Source: Candidatus Chloroploca asiatica
Lineage (GTDB): Bacteria; Chloroflexota; Chloroflexia; Chloroflexales; Chloroflexaceae
Length of the DNA: 39,918 bases
Direction of reading: 5' to 3'
Assembly: GCF_002532075.1 (NCBI RefSeq)
Contig: NZ_LYXE01000118.1
Location: forward strand, 1 to 39,918
Shown: piece by piece, positions 7,972 through 33,657 of the stretch
Layout of the letters: the number at the start of each line of letters is the position of its first letter
How positions within the stretch are numbered: position 1 is the first letter of the stretch
The notes under the pieces: model-generated
Seen by the model: the letters and a program-made list of their open reading frames with translations, nothing else
Told to the model about the DNA's origin: nothing
Databases searched by the model: none
Position numbers and translations under genes: made by a program

Positions 7972-8401
7972 ACGTGCTCCTTTTTCAGTCTTGATTCTAC
8001 CACACGAATGGAAAGGGGCAAGGTGAAACAGTCTGGCGAACGCTTCGCCCCGCTCCTGGCGAGCCTCGATGAGCAGGACACCGCACTGATCGACCGGGTG
8101 CTGGCGTTGATCGCGTCGCCGTGAGGGCAGGTTTAACGCAGAGGCGCAGAGGCGCTGAGGATGATGAGGTACTTTGTCTCCCTGCCTTTGCGCCTTCGCG
8201 CCTTTGCGTCAAAAAAACAAGCCTCGTGCGGCACGCTCCCTGATTTCCTTGGGTAATACCATCATTATCATATGTAAATATGCTATACTTGCTTTCAGAT
8301 AATGTGGCATCGCTCATGCCCCCGCTGCCATTGTCGTCAGGGGTTACTGCTGCTTACTATACCCCGAACCAATGCTCGTCCATCACACCAGGGAGCCGCA
8401 G
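7972..8401. other. intergenic region before the defence operon
   Basis: This 430-base stretch holds a 38-codon plus-strand frame (8008-8124) ending L-I-D-R-V-L-A-L-I-A-S-P, which may be the C-terminal relic of a lost gene. It also holds the dispersed repeat at 8131-8212 and an AT-rich patch (about 8255-8305) that is the only likely promoter location for the downstream operon. A TATACT (8284-8289) could be a -10 box, but no good -35 lies 17 bases upstream. Confidence 0.3.
8131..8212 (+). repeat. dispersed mini-repeat, copy 3
   Basis: It begins TTTAACGCAGAGGCGCAGAGG and ends GCGCCTTCGCGCCTTTGCGTC. The two ends recur at 7347-7426 (inverted) and the second end motif recurs in the tandem repeats at 21861-22082. 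It probably belongs to a family of short non-autonomous elements. Confidence 0.5.
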
Positions 8402-11400
8402 ATGCGCCTCGAAGCATTGACCATTGGACAGTCGCTCATCGGTATCGAGCCCGCTGCGGTTGCCACCGTGATTGCAGTGCTGTCCATTGGGGATGGCGCG
8501 GTGCAGATCGTGTACAAGACTCCCGATGGCTCCATTAAGGAACGCCTGCTCGGGCGCGATGATGAAGCGACGATTGACCTCGCCACAACTGAGCGCCCGT
8601 GGTCTTTTGATGGGAATGGTGAGGACTTCAAGCTCGTTGTTGAAGCCAAACGCATTGACCTCGCCTTCCTCTTTGACCCGATGATGGCGGTGCATACGTC
8701 CAACGTCCAACCGCTCCCCCATCAGATTACGGCGGTGTATGAGTCGATGCTCCCCCGCCAGCCCCTCCGCTACGTGCTGGCCGATGACCCTGGGGCGGGC
8801 AAGACGATTATGGCCGGCCTCTACATTCGCGAGTTGCTGATGCGGGCCGATGCGCGACGCATTCTCATCGTTGCCCCCGGGAGCCTGGTGGGCCAGTGGC
8901 GCGACGAACTCTTTGAGAAATTCGGGCTGGACTTCCGTGTCTACACCCGCGACCTTGAGGATGCCTCCCCCAGCGGCAACCCCTTTGCGGATCACCATCA
9001 CCTGATTGTCCGGTTGGATCAGATGTCGCGGAACGAGGACGCTCAGGAGAAACTCTGCCGTGCGGCCTGGGATCTGGTCGTGTTTGACGAGGCCCACAAG
9101 CTCTCGGCGCACTTTTCAGGGCGCGAGATTGCGCGCACCAAGCGCTTCAACTTCGCCGAGAAGCTAGGCCAGCACACTCGGCACCTGCTCCTGATGACCG
9201 CCACGCCACACAACGGCAAAGAGGAGGATTTTCAACTCTTTCTCTCGCTGCTCGACGCTGACCGTTTCTACGGGAAGTTCCGCGACGGTGTCCACAAGGT
9301 TGACGTGTCCGATCTGATGCGGCGCATGGTGAAAGAGGAGATGGTGCGCTTCGACGGCACTCCGCTCTTTCCCGAGCGCAAGGCGTACACGGTCAACTAC
9401 ACGCTCTCGGCCCTTGAGTACGCGCTGTATGAGGCGGTCACCCAGTACGTCCAGATGGAGATGGGCAAGGCTGACCAACTCGACGGTGCGCGTCGAGGCT
9501 CGGTGGGCTTCGCGCTGACCTCGCTCCAGCGCCGCCTCGCATCCAGCCCCGAAGCCATCTTCCAGTCTCTCAAGCGGCGCAAGGAGCGCTTGGAGCGTCG
9601 GCTTCAAACAGAACGCCTTGGCCCCGCTGGTCAGACGATCCTCGCCGAAACGCTCGTGGGTCTCCCTGAGGATGACGACGACTTGACGGCGGAGGAGCAG
9701 GAGCAGCTAGAGGAGACTCTGGTAGACCAGGCCAGCGCTTCGCGTACCATCGCTGAACTTGAGCAGGAGATCGCGATCCTCAAGGCACTTGAGCAACAAG
9801 CCAAAGCGGTCGTTGCCTCGGGGCAGGATCGTAAGTGGGACGAACTCTCACAGATCTTGCAGAACAACCCGGAGATGCGCGACGCCGCTGGACGCCAGCG
9901 CAAGCTCATCGTCTTCTCCGAACACCGCGATACGCTGAATTACCTGCACCAGCGAATTGCGGGCGTGCTCGGCACAAGCGCGGCGATTGTGACCATTCAC
10001 GGTGGCACACACCGCGATGATCGCCAACGCATCCAGACCCTCTTTCGTTCCGATCCTGAGACGCGGGTACTCATCGCCACCGATGCGGCGGGTGAGGGCG
10101 TCAACCTGCAGACCGCCAACCTGATGGTCAACTATGACCTGCCGTGGAACCCCAACCGGCTTGAGCAGCGCTTCGGGCGCATCCATCGTATCGGGCAGCA
10201 CGAGGTCTGTCACCTGTGGAACTTGGTCGCGAAGGAGACGCGTGAGGGCGCTGTCTACCACCGCCTCCTCCAGAAACTCGAAGTCGAGAGCGGGGCGCTC
10301 AACGGCCGGGTCTTCGACATTCTCGGCGAGGTCTTCGAGAATATCAGCCTCAAGGATCTCCTGCTGCAAGCCATCCGCTATGGCGACCAGCCAGAGGTAC
10401 GCGCCCGCCTCGGCCAGCGGATCGAGAGCGCCCTCGACTACGCGCACTTGCGGGCGATCCTCGACCGCAACGCGCTGGCCCAGGAGACGATGAGCCCCGA
10501 GCGGATCTTCGCGGTGCGCGAGGAGATGGAGAAGGCTGAGGCCCGCCGCCTCCAGCCCTACTTTGTCCGCTCGTTCTTCATGAAGGCGTTCAAAGCGCTG
10601 GGCGGCTCGATCTACCCGCGTGAGGCGGAGCGCTTCGAGATCACCCACGTCCCAGCCACGATCCAGGAGCGTGACCGCCTGATCACCGGGCGCAACCATC
10701 GCGAGCCCGAACCCGTGCTCAAGCGGTACGAGCGCGTCTGCTTTACGAAAGAGGCCATGCAGCCGCTTGATCGTCCGGGCATCTCCCGTGCCGTCTTGCT
10801 CCATCCTGGTCACCCGCTCATGCTTGCGCTCAGCGACCTGCTGCTCACGCAGCACGGCAACCTCCTGCGCCAGGGGGCTGTCCTGCTCGACCCGGCGGAT
10901 GAGGGGACGACGCCGAGCCTGCTCTTTCTGCTCACGCACGAGATCAAGTCTGGCGACGGCCAGGTGCTGTCGAAGCGCCTTCAGTTCGTGCGCGTGGCGC
11001 CTGACGGTTCGGCCACCTTCGCCGGCTGGGCGCCGCACCTCGACCTAGAGCCAATCGGCCCAGATGACCGAGCCCTGCTCGACCCGGTGCTTGCCGAGCC
11101 CTGGATTCGGGTTGACCAAGAGCAACGCGCCCTCGCGCTGGCCGCCGCCACCCTCGTGCCCGATCACATGCGCGAGATCGCGGGGCGGCGGGTCGCCTAC
11201 GTCGACAAAGTGCTCGCCGCCGTCCACGAGCGCCTGACCAAAGAGATTGCCTTCTGGTCGGATCGCTGGCTCAAGCTCAAGGAAGACCTGGAAGCAGGCA
11301 AGGATGTGCGCCTCCCCCTGGAGAATGCCCGTCGCACGATTAGCGACCTTGAGGGTCGTCTCGATAACCGCAAGCAAGAGCTCCAAGCCATGCGCCACGT

Positions 11401-11914
11401 CTCCTCGGCCACGCCGGTGGCCCTCGGCGGGGCATTCGTCATTCCAGCCGGGCTGCTGCGTCGTGTGCGTGGCGAGACCACGCCCACTGCGGTGGCGACG
11501 TTCGCGGCCGATGCGGCTGCCCGCGCCCGCATTGAGCGCCTCGCCATGGACGCCGTGCGCCGGGTTGAGGAGGCGGCTGGCTGCTGCGTTGTCGATGTAG
11601 CGGCACAGCAGTGCGGCTGGGATCTCACCTCTTACCCACCAGCTACCGACGGCAAACAGCCCGAGGTGCGCCACATCGAGGTGAAGGGGCGGGTCAAGGG
11701 TGCGACCACCGTGACGATCACCCGCAACGAGATCCTCTACGCCCTGAACCAGGCTGACAAGTTCTTGCTGGCTATTGTGTTCGTGAACGAGGATGACACG
11801 GTTGACGGCCCCTACTACCTGCGGAACCCGTTCGATCAGGAGCCCGGCTGGGGTGTCGCGTCGATAAATTTTGACCTGCGCACCTTGCTCAACAAAGGAG
11901 TGACCGCCCAATGA
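8402..11914 (+). CDS. SNF2-type helicase with C-terminal DUF3883 domain (DrmD-like)
   Basis: With the start at 8402 the protein has 1170 residues; an upstream ATG at 8372 is possible, but GGGAG lies correctly before 8402. Helicase domain 1 has Walker A (PGAGKT, about 130-135), DEAH (229-232) and TATPHNGK. A Glu-rich coiled coil occupies about 420-480. Helicase domain 2 has SEHRDTL, GEGVNLQ and [11 protein letters not shown] (about 590-600). The last 120 residues carry a DUF3883 module with IEVKGR, a restriction-endonuclease-like active-site pattern. This is a DNA translocase of the kind found in DISARM class 1 (DrmD) and related anti-phage loci. Its stop overlaps the next start (ATGA), so the downstream methylase is translationally coupled. 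Cleavage of DNA by the DUF3883 part is inferred. Confidence 0.88.
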
Positions 11915-14856
11915 CCCCTCCCATCAAATCCCCCCGCAAGCTTATTGAAGTCGCGCTCCCGCTTGATGCCATTAATGCGGCGGCGGCACGGGAGAAGTCG
12001 ATCCGGCACGGGCATCCCAGTACGCTGCACCTGTGGTGGGCGCGGCGTCCGCTGGCTGCAGCGCGGGCAGTTATCTTTGCTCAGCTTGTGAACGATCCGG
12101 GCTACCAGCAGGGTGGCGGGTTCAAGTACGGCATGAATAAGAAGGCTGCCGCCGAAGAGCGCAAACGTCTGTTCAAAATCATCGAGGATCTGGTGCTGTG
12201 GGAAAATACGACGAACGAGGAGGTGCTGGAACGCGCCCGAGCCGAGATTCGCCGCTCGTGGCGCGAAGTCTGCGAGCTGAATAAGGATCACCCGGAGGCT
12301 GCCGAACTCTTCAACCCAGAGAAACTCCCCGCACTGCATGACCCATTCGCCGGAGGAGGGTCAATCCCGTTAGAGGCCCAGCGACTTGGGTTGGAGGCAT
12401 ACGCTTCCGACCTCAACCCAGTAGCTGTATTGATCAACAAGGCGATGATTGAGATTCCGCCGAAGTTTGCGGGGCGTGCGCCGATAGGCCCAATCCCCCA
12501 GGGTGAGGAGCAGGCATCCTTCACCAAGAAGGAGTGGCCAGGGGCTACAGGTCTCGCGGAAGATGTGCGTCGTTATGGTGTCTGGATGCGTGAGGAAGCG
12601 CAGAAGCGCATTGGTCACCTTTATCCAAAGGTTGAGATCACTGCCGAGATGGCCCGCGAACGACCAGATTTGAAGCCCTTAGTTGGTCAGAAACTCACTG
12701 TCATTGCATGGCTCTGGGCGCGTACGGTCAAGAGTCCGAATCCGGCCTTTTCGCATGTGGATGTGCCGCTAATATCATCCTTTATTCTCTCCAGCAAAGC
12801 GGGTAAAGAGGCGTATGTGCAGCCGGTGGTTGAGGGAGATCGCTACTGGTTCACCGTGAAGGTGGGGAAGCCGGAAGATGAGGCAGCGGCGAAGATGGGC
12901 ACGAAGTTGGCGCGTGGGGCGAATTTTCGTTGTCTGATGTCGGATACACCGATTGCACCTACGCGTATTAAGTCTGAAGGAGTTGCTGGGCGCATGAGCG
13001 CACGGCTTATGGCGATTGTGGTTGAGGGAGATCGCGGGCGAGTCTACCTTACACCACTGCCTGAGCATGAGGCGATTGCACAACAAGCAAAGCCGGAGTG
13101 GGTTCCAGAGACATCTCTTCCCAATGATCCGCGCAACTTCTGGACAGTGCAGTACGGTCTTGTCACTTTTGGTGATCTCTTCACTCCACGCCAACTCGTC
13201 GCGCTGAACACCTTTGTCGATCTTGTGGGCGAGGCGCGTGAGCAGGTGCGGCGTGATGCGCTGGCGGCCGGGATGTGCGATGATAGGCGTGGAATCGATG
13301 CGGGCAGCAACGGCGCGACGGCGTATGCGGAGGCAGTGGGGGTTTATTTGGCGTTTGCGATTTCAAAGATTACCAATATCGGCTCGTCAATTGCCTCATG
13401 GATGAGTGATCGTGGTGCATTTCGTGAAACGTTCGCTCGCCAGGCAATTCCAATGGTTTGGGATTTTGCCGAGGCTAACACGTTTGCCGATGTTGGAGGA
13501 AGCCTTGCAACAGCACTCGATAAAGGCGCAATGGCAATCGCCACGTTCCCAGCTACCCCAACATCAATTGCTTCACAAAATGATGCTTCTTCGCAGGAAA
13601 TTGCCCTCGGCAAATTAGTGTCTACTGATCCTCCTTACTATGACAACATTGGCTACGCTGATCTCTCTGACTTCTTCTATGTCTGGCTGCGGCGCACGCT
13701 GCGCCCGATCTTCCCCGATCTCTTTGCCACGATTGCCGTACCCAAAGCGGAAGAGTTAGTCGCTACACCCTATCGCCATGGTGGAAAAGAAAGCGCAGAG
13801 AAGTTTTTCCTTGAGGGAATGACTCGGGCTATGCAGCGTCTTGCTGAACAAACTCATCCGGGCTTTCCTGTAACCATTTACTACGCCTTCAAGCAGGCGG
13901 AAACTCTGGGTGCGCGGGCCTCTGGCCCTCACCATGCGGGCCAGAGGTCCGCGCACCCAGGTACGGTCAGCACGGGGTGGGAAACGTTCCTCGACGCGGT
14001 GATCTCTGCTGGCTTTGCTATTAGTGGCACCTGGCCGATGCGTACAGAAGGTTCAGGGCGCATGATTGGACAGGGTACTAACGCCCTCGCCTCCAGCATC
14101 GTCCTGGTCTGCCGCAAGCGCTCCGCAGATGCGCCCACCATCTCCCGTCGCGAGTTCCTACGCGAACTGAATGCGGTGCTGCCCGAAGCGCTCGATGAGA
14201 TGACCCGAGGGGCAGGCGCCGACCGCTCGCCTGTTGCGCCGGTGGATCTCTCTCAGGCCATTATCGGCCCCGGCATGGCGGTTTTCTCCAAGTACGCCGC
14301 CGTGCTTGAGGCGGATGGCACACCAATGAGCGTCCGTACCGCGCTTCAGTTGATCAATCGCTTCCTGGCCGAGGACGAGTTCGACGCTGATACGCAGTTC
14401 TGCCTGCACTGGTTCGAGCAACACGGCTGGGGCGAGGGTCGCTTTGGCGTTGCGGATACGCTCTCCCGTGCGAAGGGCACGAGTGTAGAAGGAATGCGCG
14501 ACGCGGGCGTGATTGAGTCCGGTGGCGGCATCGTGCGCCTGCGTAAGTGGTCGGAGTACCCACGTCATTGGAACCCGCAGAGCGATACGCGTGCCCCGGT
14601 CTGGGAGACCCTTCACCACCTTATCCGCGCCCTCAAGCAAGATGGCGACGCTGGCGCGGGAGGGGTACTCGCCAGTGTGCGCGGGAAAAGCGAGGCAGCA
14701 CGACAACTGGCGTATCGCCTCTACACGCTCTGCGAGCGTCAGGGCTGGGCCGATGACGCCCGCGCCTACAACGAACTGATCACCAGTTGGAGCGGCATCG
14801 AGCTTGCCGCCGCTGATGCACCGACGAAGCCGACGCAGCGTAGTCTCTTTGACTGA
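11911..14856 (+). CDS. DUF1156-containing DNA methyltransferase
   Basis: The protein has 981 residues. The DUF1156 N-terminus is clear ([29 protein letters not shown]). The SAM-binding motif DPFAGGG is at 144-150 and the catalytic DPPY at 573-576, so the motif order is I then IV and the target is an exocyclic amino group (N6-adenine or N4-cytosine). About 430 residues separate the motifs and probably hold the recognition region. The start is preceded by AAAGGAG. DUF1156 methylases occur in anti-phage loci next to DUF499 ATPases and helicases. Residues about 666-684 are encoded by an inserted palindrome (13906-13960) that keeps the frame; whether the enzyme tolerates it is unknown. Confidence 0.88.
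13906..13960. repeat. palindromic element inserted in frame in the methylase gene
   Basis: Two 23-base arms (13906-13928 and 13938-13960) are reverse complements at 22 of 23 positions, with a 9-base loop. The sequence begins CTGGGTGCGCGGGCC. The encoded stretch ([18 protein letters not shown]) is low in complexity and sits between conserved-looking segments (YYAFKQAE and [11 protein letters not shown]), so it looks like an acquired REP/MITE-like hairpin. Confidence 0.75.
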
Positions 14857-14880: not shown

Positions 14881-17739
14881 ATGAAACCCTGGCGAGAAGT
14901 AGCAATTCCTCACCCGGATGTGCTTGAGGGAACCTTCCAGCAATCCGAGTTCGCTGCGGACATTACCGCTGTCCGCTCTGGCAACGCCTCTCGGGAGTAC
15001 CAGGACGCTGCCGCGTTCTTCCAACGCACGTTCATCACCGAGGGCATGCGCCTGCTCCTGATTCAAGTCGCCCAACGCCTGAACGGACGCGGCGGCGAGC
15101 CAGTGATCCAGCTCCAGACCGCTTTTGGTGGCGGGAAGACGCACACCATGCTCGCGGTCTACCACCTTGCCACCCGGGCAAGGAACTTGAGTGACTTGGT
15201 GGGCATTCCGGATCTCATCGACCAGGCAGGTCTGATGGACGTACCACAGGCCCGCGTTGCCGTGCTGGATGGGAACGCCCACGCGCCTGGTCAGCCGTGG
15301 TTGCATGGCACACAGCGCATTCGTACGCTCTGGGGCGAACTTGCATGGCAGCTCGGCGGTGCCGAAGGGCTCGCCCTGGTGCAAGAGGCGGATGCCACGG
15401 GCACCTCACCCGGGAAGGATCTGCTCAAGACGCTGTTAGCGCAGTATGCCCCCTGCGTGGTGCTGATTGACGAACTGGTCGCCTACATTCGGCAATTCCA
15501 GGAGGGGCAACCCCTCAGTGGCGGTAGCTTTGACAGTAACCTGTCCTTTGTTCAGGCGCTTACCGAGGCGTGCAAGCTTGTGCCCAATGCCATCCTGCTT
15601 GCCTCCTTGCCTGAGTCAGAGATCGAGGCTGGCAGCCAGCGCGGGGTGTCCGCGCTGCGAGCGCTGGAAAAGACCTTTGGTCGTGTGCAGGCCTTGTGGA
15701 AGCCTGTCGCAACCGAAGAGGCCTTCGAGATTGTCCGACGGCGCCTGTTCGAGCCCGTGAGCGACGCCCATGCCCGTGACGTTGTCTGTCGTGCCTTCAC
15801 CGACGCCTATCTTGCCGAGGGAACCCGGCTGCCCAGCGAGACCCAGGAGACCCGCTACTTCGACCGGCTGGTTCAGGCGTATCCCATCCACCCGGAAGTC
15901 TTTGACCGGCTCTACGAGGACTGGACAACAATTGACGGCTTCCAGCGCACGCGCGGCGTGCTCAAACTGATGGCGAAGGTGATCTACCGGCTGTGGAAAG
16001 ACGCCAACCAGGATTTGCTCATCCTCCCCGGCAGTCTGCCGCTCTACGACGGCAGCGCACGCAATGAACTGACGTACTACCTCCCTGCGGGATGGGATCC
16101 CGTGATCGAAAAGGACATTGATGGCGACCGGGCTGAGACGACCGATCTCGAGAGCAAAGAGCCGCGTTTTGGTGCCGTGAACGCAGCCCGCCGAGTGGCT
16201 CGCACGCTTTTCCTTGGCAGTGCGCCCTCATCCGGGGCCACCAAACCAGGCATCCGTGGGATCGACCGCTCGCGGATCCTCCTGGGCTGCCTCCAGCCAG
16301 GCCAGACCGCCTCGACCTACTCGGATGCACTGAATCGCCTCGCGGATCGGCTGCATTACCTCAACAGCTCCGGCGACAAGGCCCAGGAGACGACGCTCTT
16401 CTGGTTCGACACACGGGCCAACCTCCGCCGTGAGATGGAGGAACGCAAGAAGCGCTTTGACGATACGAGCGACATCCGTGGGAAGCTAGACAGTGTCCTC
16501 AAGAAGCTGACCAATGGAATCACCTATTTTGATGGCACGCACGTCTTCACCCCCCACGCAGATGTGCCTGACGACAGTGCGCTGCGCCTCGTCTTGCTGC
16601 TCCCTGAGCAGTTCTACTCCCGTGACGAGACCCGCCAGGGGGTCGATGCGGTGCTGGACTACGTACGGAACCACGGCCTCAAGCCGCGTTACCGGAGCAA
16701 CCGGCTCATCTTGCTCGCCCCCGACCACGGCTCGTTGGTGCGCCTACGCGACTGCATCAGGATCGCGCTCGCCTGGGCTTCGATTGTTGATGACGTGAAG
16801 AGCGGGCGGTTAAACATTGATCAACTCCAAAAGCGGCAGGCAGAGAAGGAGTTACAGACCGCTGAGGATGTACTACCACGGGTCGCCCGTGAGTGCTACC
16901 GCTGGCTGCTCTGCCCGGTACAGCACACGCCCACCGATCCGCGCCCATCCGTCGAGGCCTTCCCGCTCAACACCAGCGGCGCATCATTGGGCAGCGAGAT
17001 CGAGCGCGTATGCGTAGATAACGAACTCGTGATCAGCGCGTGGTCGCCCATCCACCTACGGACAAAGCTGACCGCTCTGTACTGGAAACCTGACAAAGCG
17101 AGCGTCGCGGCGCTTGCCTTTTGGGAAGATACCCTCCGCTACCTGTACCTGCCGCGCTTACGAACGCGCAGTGTCTTAGAGCAGGCCATCCTCAAAGGGG
17201 CGGCCAGTCGCGACTTTTTCGGGACGGCCTACGGACAAAGCGACGGTGTCTTTGCGGGCTTCCAGCTTGGCAACGCCAACATTCAGGTTGATACCACCCT
17301 CCTGCTGATCGAGCCGACGGCAGCGGCGCAGTACGAGGCAGCCCTGGCTGCGAAAAAGGCCGAGAAGGTGCCAACGCCCCCAGTGGAACCACCGCAGCCA
17401 CCTGGCCCTGGCCCGGGCTATCCTCCGATCCCAGGCGGCTCATCAAAACAGCTACAGGAAGAAGGGGGTTGGGGCAAGCCGACGCCCCCAAGTGGCGACG
17501 ACAAAGCAAAGGCCCACACCTTCATCGGCACCGTTGACGTGAACGCAGCGACCGCCAAGACACGCTTGGTTGAAATCGCTGACGAGATCATCAGCCACCT
17601 AACGAGCGACATGCTCGCCTCGGTCCAGGTCAGCATCGAGATCAAGGCCGATTTCCCTGCGGGGGTTTCTGATCAAATCAAGCGGGTTGTCTCGGAGAAC
17701 GCCGCGAATCTGGGGTTTAAGAACAAGACGTGGGAGTAA
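14881..17739 (+). CDS. DUF499-containing ATPase (anti-phage-associated)
   Basis: The protein has 952 residues. A P-loop ATPase lies in the first 300: Walker [10 protein letters not shown] (82-90) and Walker [12 protein letters not shown] (192-202). The middle is a long helical region rich in charged residues. Near 820-870 is a Pro/Gly-rich linker, followed by a small terminal domain ending [10 protein letters not shown]. The family is repeatedly found with DUF1156 methylases in defence islands; its likely role is as an ATP-driven switch or scaffold linking DNA sensing to helicase or nuclease action, but no mechanism is established for it here. It starts 24 bases after the methylase stop and ends 25 bases before the CHAT gene start, so it is the third gene of the operon. 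Confidence 0.85.
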
Positions 17740-22139: not shown

Positions 22140-22202
22140 CCTGGAAGCAAGGGCCTCCCGCGCTCGAAGGCATGCCGAGGGCAGGACGCCCTCGCTCCCA
22201 GG
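22140..22202. repeat. imperfect palindromic element upstream of the thioesterase gene
   Basis: CCTGGAAGCAAGGGC (22140-22154) and GCCCTCGCTCCCAGG (22188-22202) pair at 13 of 15 positions around a 33-base loop. It resembles an extragenic palindrome. Together with the 111-bp repeats it fills the 422-base gap between 21836 and 22259, where I see no gene. Confidence 0.5.
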
Positions 22203-23268: not shown

Positions 23269-23432
23269 AGGGCGATTGCATCATACGAAACCGGATACAA
23301 AAAGACGCGCTATCAGGGCACCCGCAAGGGGTGCCCGTACACCGGATCCGGCCCCCGGCCGGTAGGGGCACCCCTTGCGGGTGCCCTGGCGGGTGCCCTG
23401 GCGGGTGCATTCACGGAAGATGCAATCGCCCT
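23269..23432 (+). mobile_element. MITE-like element, copy 1 (164 bp)
   Basis: The terminal inverted repeats AGGGCGATTGCATC (23269-23282) and GATGCAATCGCCCT (23419-23432) match perfectly. Inside, 25-base arms (23316-23340 and 23362-23386) form a second inverted repeat around a 21-base core. No transposase is encoded. A second copy at 33499-33657 shares ends and arms but has its core inverted. The flanking CGATGCTCCGCAGGG on both sides may reflect duplication at insertion or a second partial copy. Confidence 0.75.
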
Positions 23433-33498: not shown

Positions 33499-33657
33499 AG
33501 GGCGATTGCATCATACGAAACCGGATACAAAAAGACGCTCTATCAGGGCACCCGCAAGGGGTGCCCCTACAGGCTACAGGCCGGGGGCCGGATCCGGTGT
33601 ACGGGCACCCCTTGCGGGTGCCCTGGCGGGTGCATTCACGGAAGATGCCATCGCCCT
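33499..33657 (+). mobile_element. MITE-like element, copy 2 (159 bp), core inverted relative to copy 1
   Basis: Ends AGGGCGATTGCATC (33499-33512) and GATGCCATCGCCCT (33644-33657) match copy 1 with one change. The 25-base internal arms (33546-33570 and 33599-33623) match too. The sequence between them reads as the reverse complement of the copy-1 core: ACCGGATCCGGCCCCCGGCC appears here only on the opposite strand. The flanks (GCT before, AGC after) extend the symmetry, leaving TA just inside. Confidence 0.75.

Follow-up and report, generated by a model that had tools for sequence, protein, structure and literature searches.

How does a dispersed palindrome of a largely extragenic type come to lie, in frame, inside the gene of an anti-phage DNA methyltransferase, and what becomes of the enzyme that carries it? 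The window, meaning the whole stretch of 39,918 nucleotides that was analysed, is one entire contig of the 5.84-Mb draft genome of Candidatus Chloroploca asiatica (199 contigs). It encodes HmaA, HmaB and HmaC next to one another on one strand, with profile scores that identify an Hma defence system. The same operon make-up (helicase, DUF1156 methylase and DUF499 ATPase) is described for Hma, or for a DUF499-centred BREX-related system, in PMC12839542, and inserts of the type found in the window are absent from the available part of that description. The features discussed first are:

8372..11914, forward strand: hmaA, SNF2/DEAD helicase with a NOV_C domain (PADLOC HmaA, 2008 bits)
11911..14856, forward strand: hmaB, DUF1156 DNA adenine methylase of 981 aa (PF06634, 108 bits; PADLOC HmaB, 1741 bits)
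14881..17739, forward strand: hmaC, DUF499 ATPase (PADLOC HmaC, 1437 bits)
13906..13960, no strand: REP-like palindromic element of 55 nt with two inverted half-units, hmaB codons 666-684
13906..13931, forward strand: left arm of the palindrome (inverted-repeat search)
13935..13960, reverse strand: right arm of the palindrome (inverted-repeat search)

The arms of the palindrome are 26 nt each, are 92% complementary and enclose a 3-nt spacer. The first-pass annotation of this DNA had placed a 55-base hairpin at exactly these positions, and its arms, given as 22/23 matching, were slightly too short. The element is the sole inverted repeat between 12000 and 16500 (arm of at least 12, distance of at most 60), and one of 12 in the whole window with an arm of at least 13. 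The predicted RNA fold of 13890-13976 has an energy of -63.6 kcal/mol (z -8.1), which none of 200 shuffles equalled. Scored as a gap-free palindrome, the element reaches 20.4; no dinucleotide shuffle exceeded 11.4 and no codon shuffle of hmaB exceeded 11.2 (200 of each). A chance palindrome is ruled out by these three controls.

The open reading frame at 11911-14856 (981 aa) passes through the palindrome without a stop. Aligned with 80 homologues (the best-scoring 80 of 579, so that insert-rich ones are possibly under-represented), the window HmaB has 19 residues at a loop where the others have 4-6. The frame is kept, as the annotation had proposed, and the net gain is 14 aligned residues rather than the approximately 18 it had counted. 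The palindrome is absent from this loop in 80/80 homologues, and the same residues occur in none of them, which rules out a conserved DUF1156 feature. The nearest hmaB, that of Candidatus Chloroploca sp. Khr17 (NZ_RYFF01000072.1), is among these homologues, and its site is empty where the window carries the palindrome. As 55 is not divisible by 3, approximately 13 nt of the older loop have apparently gone, if Khr17 is taken as a proxy for the ancestor; it is only a proxy, because the window flanks diverge from it. Such a loss appears to fit a non-clean event, whereas clean transposition would cause none.

Within the protein, the motifs DPFAGGG and DPPYY are intact. An AlphaFold model of HmaB (mean pLDDT 71.8, pTM 0.50, with a weak methylase core) places residues 661-687 at pLDDT <50, between a strand (654-661) and a helix (688-699). 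A Foldseek search of this model against the PDB returned nothing at E<=0.001 (best 0.13), and a Pfam scan of the window HmaB returned no Hint or splicing domain of the kind expected in an intein. Intact catalytic motifs, together with the low order predicted for the region that houses the insert, argue that the enzyme tolerates it. On this modelling, the element most likely does no more than lengthen a flexible loop.

The palindrome belongs to a dispersed family. A one-arm pattern matches the genome of origin 57+61 times, compared with 4+4 matches for a reversed control pattern, so that the genome search suggested by the annotation yielded 118 arm matches against 8. Matches to the palindrome at E<=0.001 occur in 9/41 genomes, its own included. 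The best copies are 91% identical in two genomes of the same genus (G001 and G002) and 87-89% identical in one of the same family (G013), and they share the two-arm plan with a GCATGC-like centre. In another member of the family, the single-contig genome G045, a related pattern has 131+205 matches against 0 for its control. Units of ~35 nt and pairs of ~50-73 nt coexist. The copies are thus many, single or paired and mainly extragenic, as judged by codon usage and open frames rather than annotation, and this is what characterizes REP-like dispersed palindromes. Membership in the known superfamilies is a different matter: sequence inspection gave termini of CTGGG...CCCAG with adjoining bases GTAC, which excludes the GTAG type, and the window copy contains no CGTC, a motif that is present inside the arms of other members of the family. 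A REPIN consists of two inverted REPs and a spacer that act as a single mobile unit. The window element may be of this kind: it has two inverted half-units and a short centre, and unit copies occur in G001, G002 and G013.

Few of the family members examined lie within coding frames by the in-frame test used here. This test detects only elements in an open frame with coding-like flanks, and misses out-of-frame insertions; the clusters examined are part of the 118 matches of the own genome and the 336 of G045. In G045, 1/92 distinct clusters examined passed, and it is a copy in hmaB at the loop that carries the window element (site 659, see below); 29/30 loci had no coding-like frame common to both flanks. 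G045 has another copy in hmaB, at site 443 (L225:8251), one flank of which did not reach the threshold. In the own genome 9/60 clusters examined passed, and a clear palindrome is present in only 2/9, namely hmaB (20.4) and L292 (16.8). The matches at L330, L336-L340 and L345 are 25 nt long with 3 mismatches (for L337, <=2 by another listing), and their palindrome scores of 3.0-6.8 are within the background (maximum 7.0). The idea that the family lies in frame in many genes is therefore not borne out. The L292 copy (L292:701-812), which joins that of hmaB as a clear palindrome in frame, lies in an open reading frame read by eye as a membrane glycosyltransferase.

Palindromes inside proteins have precedents. 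GTAG/CGTC REPs are described as mostly intergenic, with some in frame in genes; the intragenic ones are often dimers or groups coding for 20-30 aa, and many of the host genes function in DNA synthesis and repair, recB being hit at approximately the same site in two species (available text of PMC3733652). The window element resembles them as a short palindrome in frame, and differs in having no GTAG or terminal CGTC tag. Its host is an anti-phage methylase, and the main text of that paper contains no word beginning with "methyl" or "restriction". The Rickettsia palindromic elements (RPE) are likewise palindromes in frame, in unrelated proteins, and are longer (~105-150 bp) than the window element (PMC2229807, PMC10969869, as far as their available text goes). 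The Rickettsia kinase gmk is reported, in the part of PMC2229807 available, to be translated with its RPE and to be active, with a changed substrate affinity. The view that an extragenic-type element had become protein is borne out by the in-frame hmaB copy of a dispersed family. That the case would be singular is not borne out, given that intragenic in-frame REPs are documented (PMC3733652, in part) and that relatives carry other in-frame inserts at the same loop.

REPs are associated with RAYTs, the REP-associated tyrosine transposases (PMC3733652, available text), and in the relatives of the window, unlike the intragenic REPs of that source, RAYTs lie in frame in the same gene as the palindrome. 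Y1/RAYT domains are present inside the hmaB open reading frames of G052, G013 and G054. The RAYT model NF047646 (cut-off 80) scores 91.9 bits in G052, 91.0 in G013 and 87.4 in G268, and 76.1 in one search and 80.4 in another in G054. In G052, G013 and G054 the match begins at 26-28 and ends at 145-146 of the model's 146 positions, so that the domains are near-complete, and all three keep the HUH motif. RAYT-family matches were found in 56 of 82 genomes of the order, five of them in open reading frames of at least 1000 aa, and 400 genomes sampled from the phylum contributed at least one more of this length, in G268. Among the matches listed, all 6 RAYTs in such long frames are in defence-type DNA methyltransferases: 4 in HmaB (G052, G013, G054 and G268) and 2 in Eco57I/type IIG enzymes (G008 and G044), the latter at 75-78 bits, under the cut-off. 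Open reading frames of 509-526 aa with RAYT matches (G155, G001 and G005) did not, on reading by eye, resemble insertions into a further gene.

A few further loci deserve mention. In the two type IIG genes (L397:903-5447 in G008 and L398:832-5493 in G044), an in-frame RAYT separates the FYTPR segment from motif I at an equivalent position, with repeat-like peptides beside it. The HmaB of G268, a distant member of the phylum (L391:1742-5362), has its RAYT at site 197 and has further loops with seemingly repeat-coded peptides. On contig C528 of G012 (L399), an hmaB-like match is preceded, ~300 bases upstream, by a RAYT match.

The palindromes themselves accompany the hmaB RAYTs of G054, G013 and G052. 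The RAYT of G054 (L373) has palindromes on either side that match the consensus with 0 mismatch; those of G013 are on both sides with 3 mismatches, and those of G052 on one side only with 2-4 mismatches. Among 30 RAYT loci of the order that were scanned, several palindromes occur only at these three, L369 and L371 have one each, and the palindrome (<=4 mismatches) is absent at 25/30, among which are both type IIG genes and the stand-alone G045 RAYT. The arrangement recalls REPtrons, in which palindromes adjoin the RAYT; the fusion of the RAYT frame with that of a host methylase is unlike them (PMC3733652, available text). Because the in-frame RAYT of G054 is flanked by the same palindromes, the family would have been moved, at least originally, by a RAYT-type single-strand transposase, and RAYT movement of the family in general is likely. 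Against this stand the RAYT loci that lack the palindrome, the missing REP tags and the own genome, which gave 0 RAYT matches at E<=1e-12 and four at E<=1e-5, weak or partial. A literature search for in-frame RAYTs in defence methylases found none among the best-ranked titles (subscription journals were mostly outside its scope); they look new, whereas in-frame REPs in genes are already known.

The loop of the window is one of several in HmaB that accept foreign DNA. When 27 HmaB open reading frames of the order were aligned to five references from Proteobacteria (L024 numbering), 15/27 had inserts of at least 14 aa, at five sites: 197, 303, 443, 568 and 659. The 27 are not independent, since they include fragments, both halves of the split G020 gene, paralogues and relatives by descent; left out were L349 (G064) and L360 (G072), with no frame passing the filter, and some weaker or contig-end matches. 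Site 659 is that of the window element; the window equivalents of the other four, all empty, are:

12514..12516, forward strand: equivalent of site 197, filled in relatives by a RAYT or by an insert of 23S-IVP type (alignment mapping)
12835..12837, forward strand: equivalent of site 303 (alignment mapping)
13261..13263, forward strand: equivalent of site 443, occupied by a RAYT (G054) or a DUF559 element (G020) (alignment mapping)
13636..13638, forward strand: equivalent of intein site 568 of G021, in motif DPPYY (alignment mapping)

An insert unique within the HmaB family is ruled out, as the same loop is filled otherwise in relatives. Among the occupants of site 659 in relatives, G045 carries a palindrome that is related to the window element without being the same, G030 and G054 carry GA/CT-rich stretches, G025 an insert that is itself palindromic, and G013 a tandem array. 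Of the inserts searched for further copies, those of the window, G045 and G030 have them elsewhere in their respective genomes; the G030 insert has 10 matches in G030, 5 in G054 and 0 in G025. A genome search with the G025 palindrome, which missed the site itself, gave 2+1 matches against 1+1 for the control. The label of repeat for the inserts of G013, G021, G047, G052 and G068 is a reading by eye, and neither the G065 insert nor an acidic one in G052 can be recognised as an element. The insert of G021 (L231:5584-10260) is intein-like, with Hint and LAGLIDADG domains within DPPYY, and is a probable intein.

Site 197 has RAYTs in G052 and G013, and inserts of the 23S-rRNA-IVP type in G002, G045, G013 (second copy) and G020. 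The IVP insert of the Khr17 hmaB (L082/L227) scores 129.7 bits with PF05635, and the other IVP inserts were assigned by likeness. In L082/L227, L225 (G045), L347 (G013) and L229 (G020) the four-helix IVP gene uses another frame and the hmaB frame stays open. Read in the hmaB frame, the Khr17 insert runs through 147 codons without a stop, and 5/2000 shuffles of it were stop-free, as were 0/2000 of the longer G045 stretch, counts that are no independent test in frames that were chosen for being open. A comparable case is the ShiLan insertion, a stop-free insert in a phage DNA methylase gene that has another open reading frame in a different frame; that second frame encodes an HNH endonuclease in phages, and the one in hmaB encodes a four-helix IVP protein in bacterial genomes (PMC11855218, available text). 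A literature search for IVPs in protein genes found none among the best-ranked titles, with subscription journals mostly outside its scope.

The frequency of inserts separates HmaB from HmaC (15/27 versus 0/16 with at least 14 aa, Fisher p 0.00015), and fails to separate it from HmaA, given 6/14 in the latter (p 0.52). Inserted residues number ~2700 in HmaB versus ~170 in HmaA, with different references, namely the five proteobacterial HmaB in the one case and, as for HmaC, majority columns in the other.

The immediate surroundings of the palindrome bear on how it arrived. In comparison with the Khr17 hmaB, it lies within a divergent tract:

13831..14022, forward strand: divergent patch around the element versus the Khr17 hmaB (identity comparison)

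Identity is 0.79 over 13831-13905 and 0.76 over 13961-14022. Outside the patch it is 0.99 over 13411-13830, 0.96 over 14023-14070 and 0.90 from 14071. Counted as mismatches, there are 3/420 before 13831, 15/73 and 15/62 on the two flanks of the element and then 2/48, and 24/30 of the flank mismatches are at third codon positions. Identity is also low over ~12331-12630 and ~12811-13170, two stretches that include sites 197 and 303. Because the patch flanks diverge, the element may have been imported with a short recombined tract, or the tract may have been replaced in Khr17.

Taken together, the preferred reading, with a probability of approximately 0.78, is that a variable loop of HmaB contains, in frame, a copy from a dispersed REP-like family that was at least originally moved by a RAYT, that the surrounding patch of hmaB has recombined and that the insert is tolerated. 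Short-patch recombination between hmaB alleles would have delivered the window copy or later altered its surroundings. The palindrome would owe its persistence to a tolerant loop and to a methylase that is predicted to stay active.

A competitor, given somewhat under even odds, dispenses with transposition at this locus: the element came with a divergent hmaB tract by homologous recombination, or the patch was lost from Khr17 in the same way. The concentration of mismatches in the patch flanking the element speaks for it, as do the low-identity stretches at sites 197 and 303. However, no donor allele with the window element was found, the G045 palindrome at the same loop is related but different, the right edge of the patch is blurred by the identity of 0.90 from 14071, and Khr17 may just as well be the one with a foreign patch, a question on which GC3 does not discriminate. 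Damage to the methylase in a decaying operon would be suggested by an insert within the methylase part, and broken hmaB genes do exist in relatives (the frame of G020 is lost after the DUF559 element at site 443, and only a C-terminal part was found in G030). The open 981-aa frame with its two intact motifs, and the open and well-matched hmaA and hmaC, make this rather unlikely. The insert may weaken or alter the enzyme, as once suggested, although the intact motifs and the low predicted order favour tolerance.

It is also improbable that the hairpin acts as regulatory RNA (a pause, an RNase III site or a translation brake in the hma mRNA) and not as protein. The hairpin is very stable, and a role in mRNA is ascribed to REP hairpins (PMC3733652, available text); on the other hand, relatives have the same gene without the hairpin, others have different inserts at the same loop, and neighbouring loops carry inserts of protein type (intein, RAYT). 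An assembly or sequencing artefact, for which the draft state of the genome in 199 contigs might be invoked, is extremely unlikely, since other genomes contain family members of the same form, since G045, a single contig, has relatives of the palindrome inside its hmaB, and since the reading frame is kept.

The reading of a tolerated, RAYT-moved palindrome can be extended, speculatively, to the whole class of hosts. Anti-phage DNA methyltransferase genes might be a preferred in-frame nest for short mobile elements (REP palindromes, RAYTs, 23S-IVP, DUF559 elements and inteins) in a few permissive loops, where simple loss would cost the host its defence, and from which the elements would spread with defence genes by recombination and horizontal transfer. 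We regard this as a doubtful proposal for the present. If true, it would be an intein-like strategy mostly without splicing, of which the window shows the smallest form. Near relatives provide a filled and an empty site, and one enzyme a series of passengers from ~18 to ~430 codons, and both the tolerance of the loop to inserted DNA and the action of a RAYT from inside a host protein become testable. Should the bias towards defence methylases hold more widely, mobile elements would ride immune genes from within the coding frame. Low-complexity stretches in methylases of the HmaB group should be read with caution, as they may be translated repeats.

Elsewhere in the window, another one-arm match to the family, with 2 mismatches, is located at 22177-22201. 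A different long inverted repeat (CAGGGCACCCGCAAGGGGTGCCC) is present twice, at 33544-33625 and 23314-23388, and possibly represents a second dispersed palindrome family.
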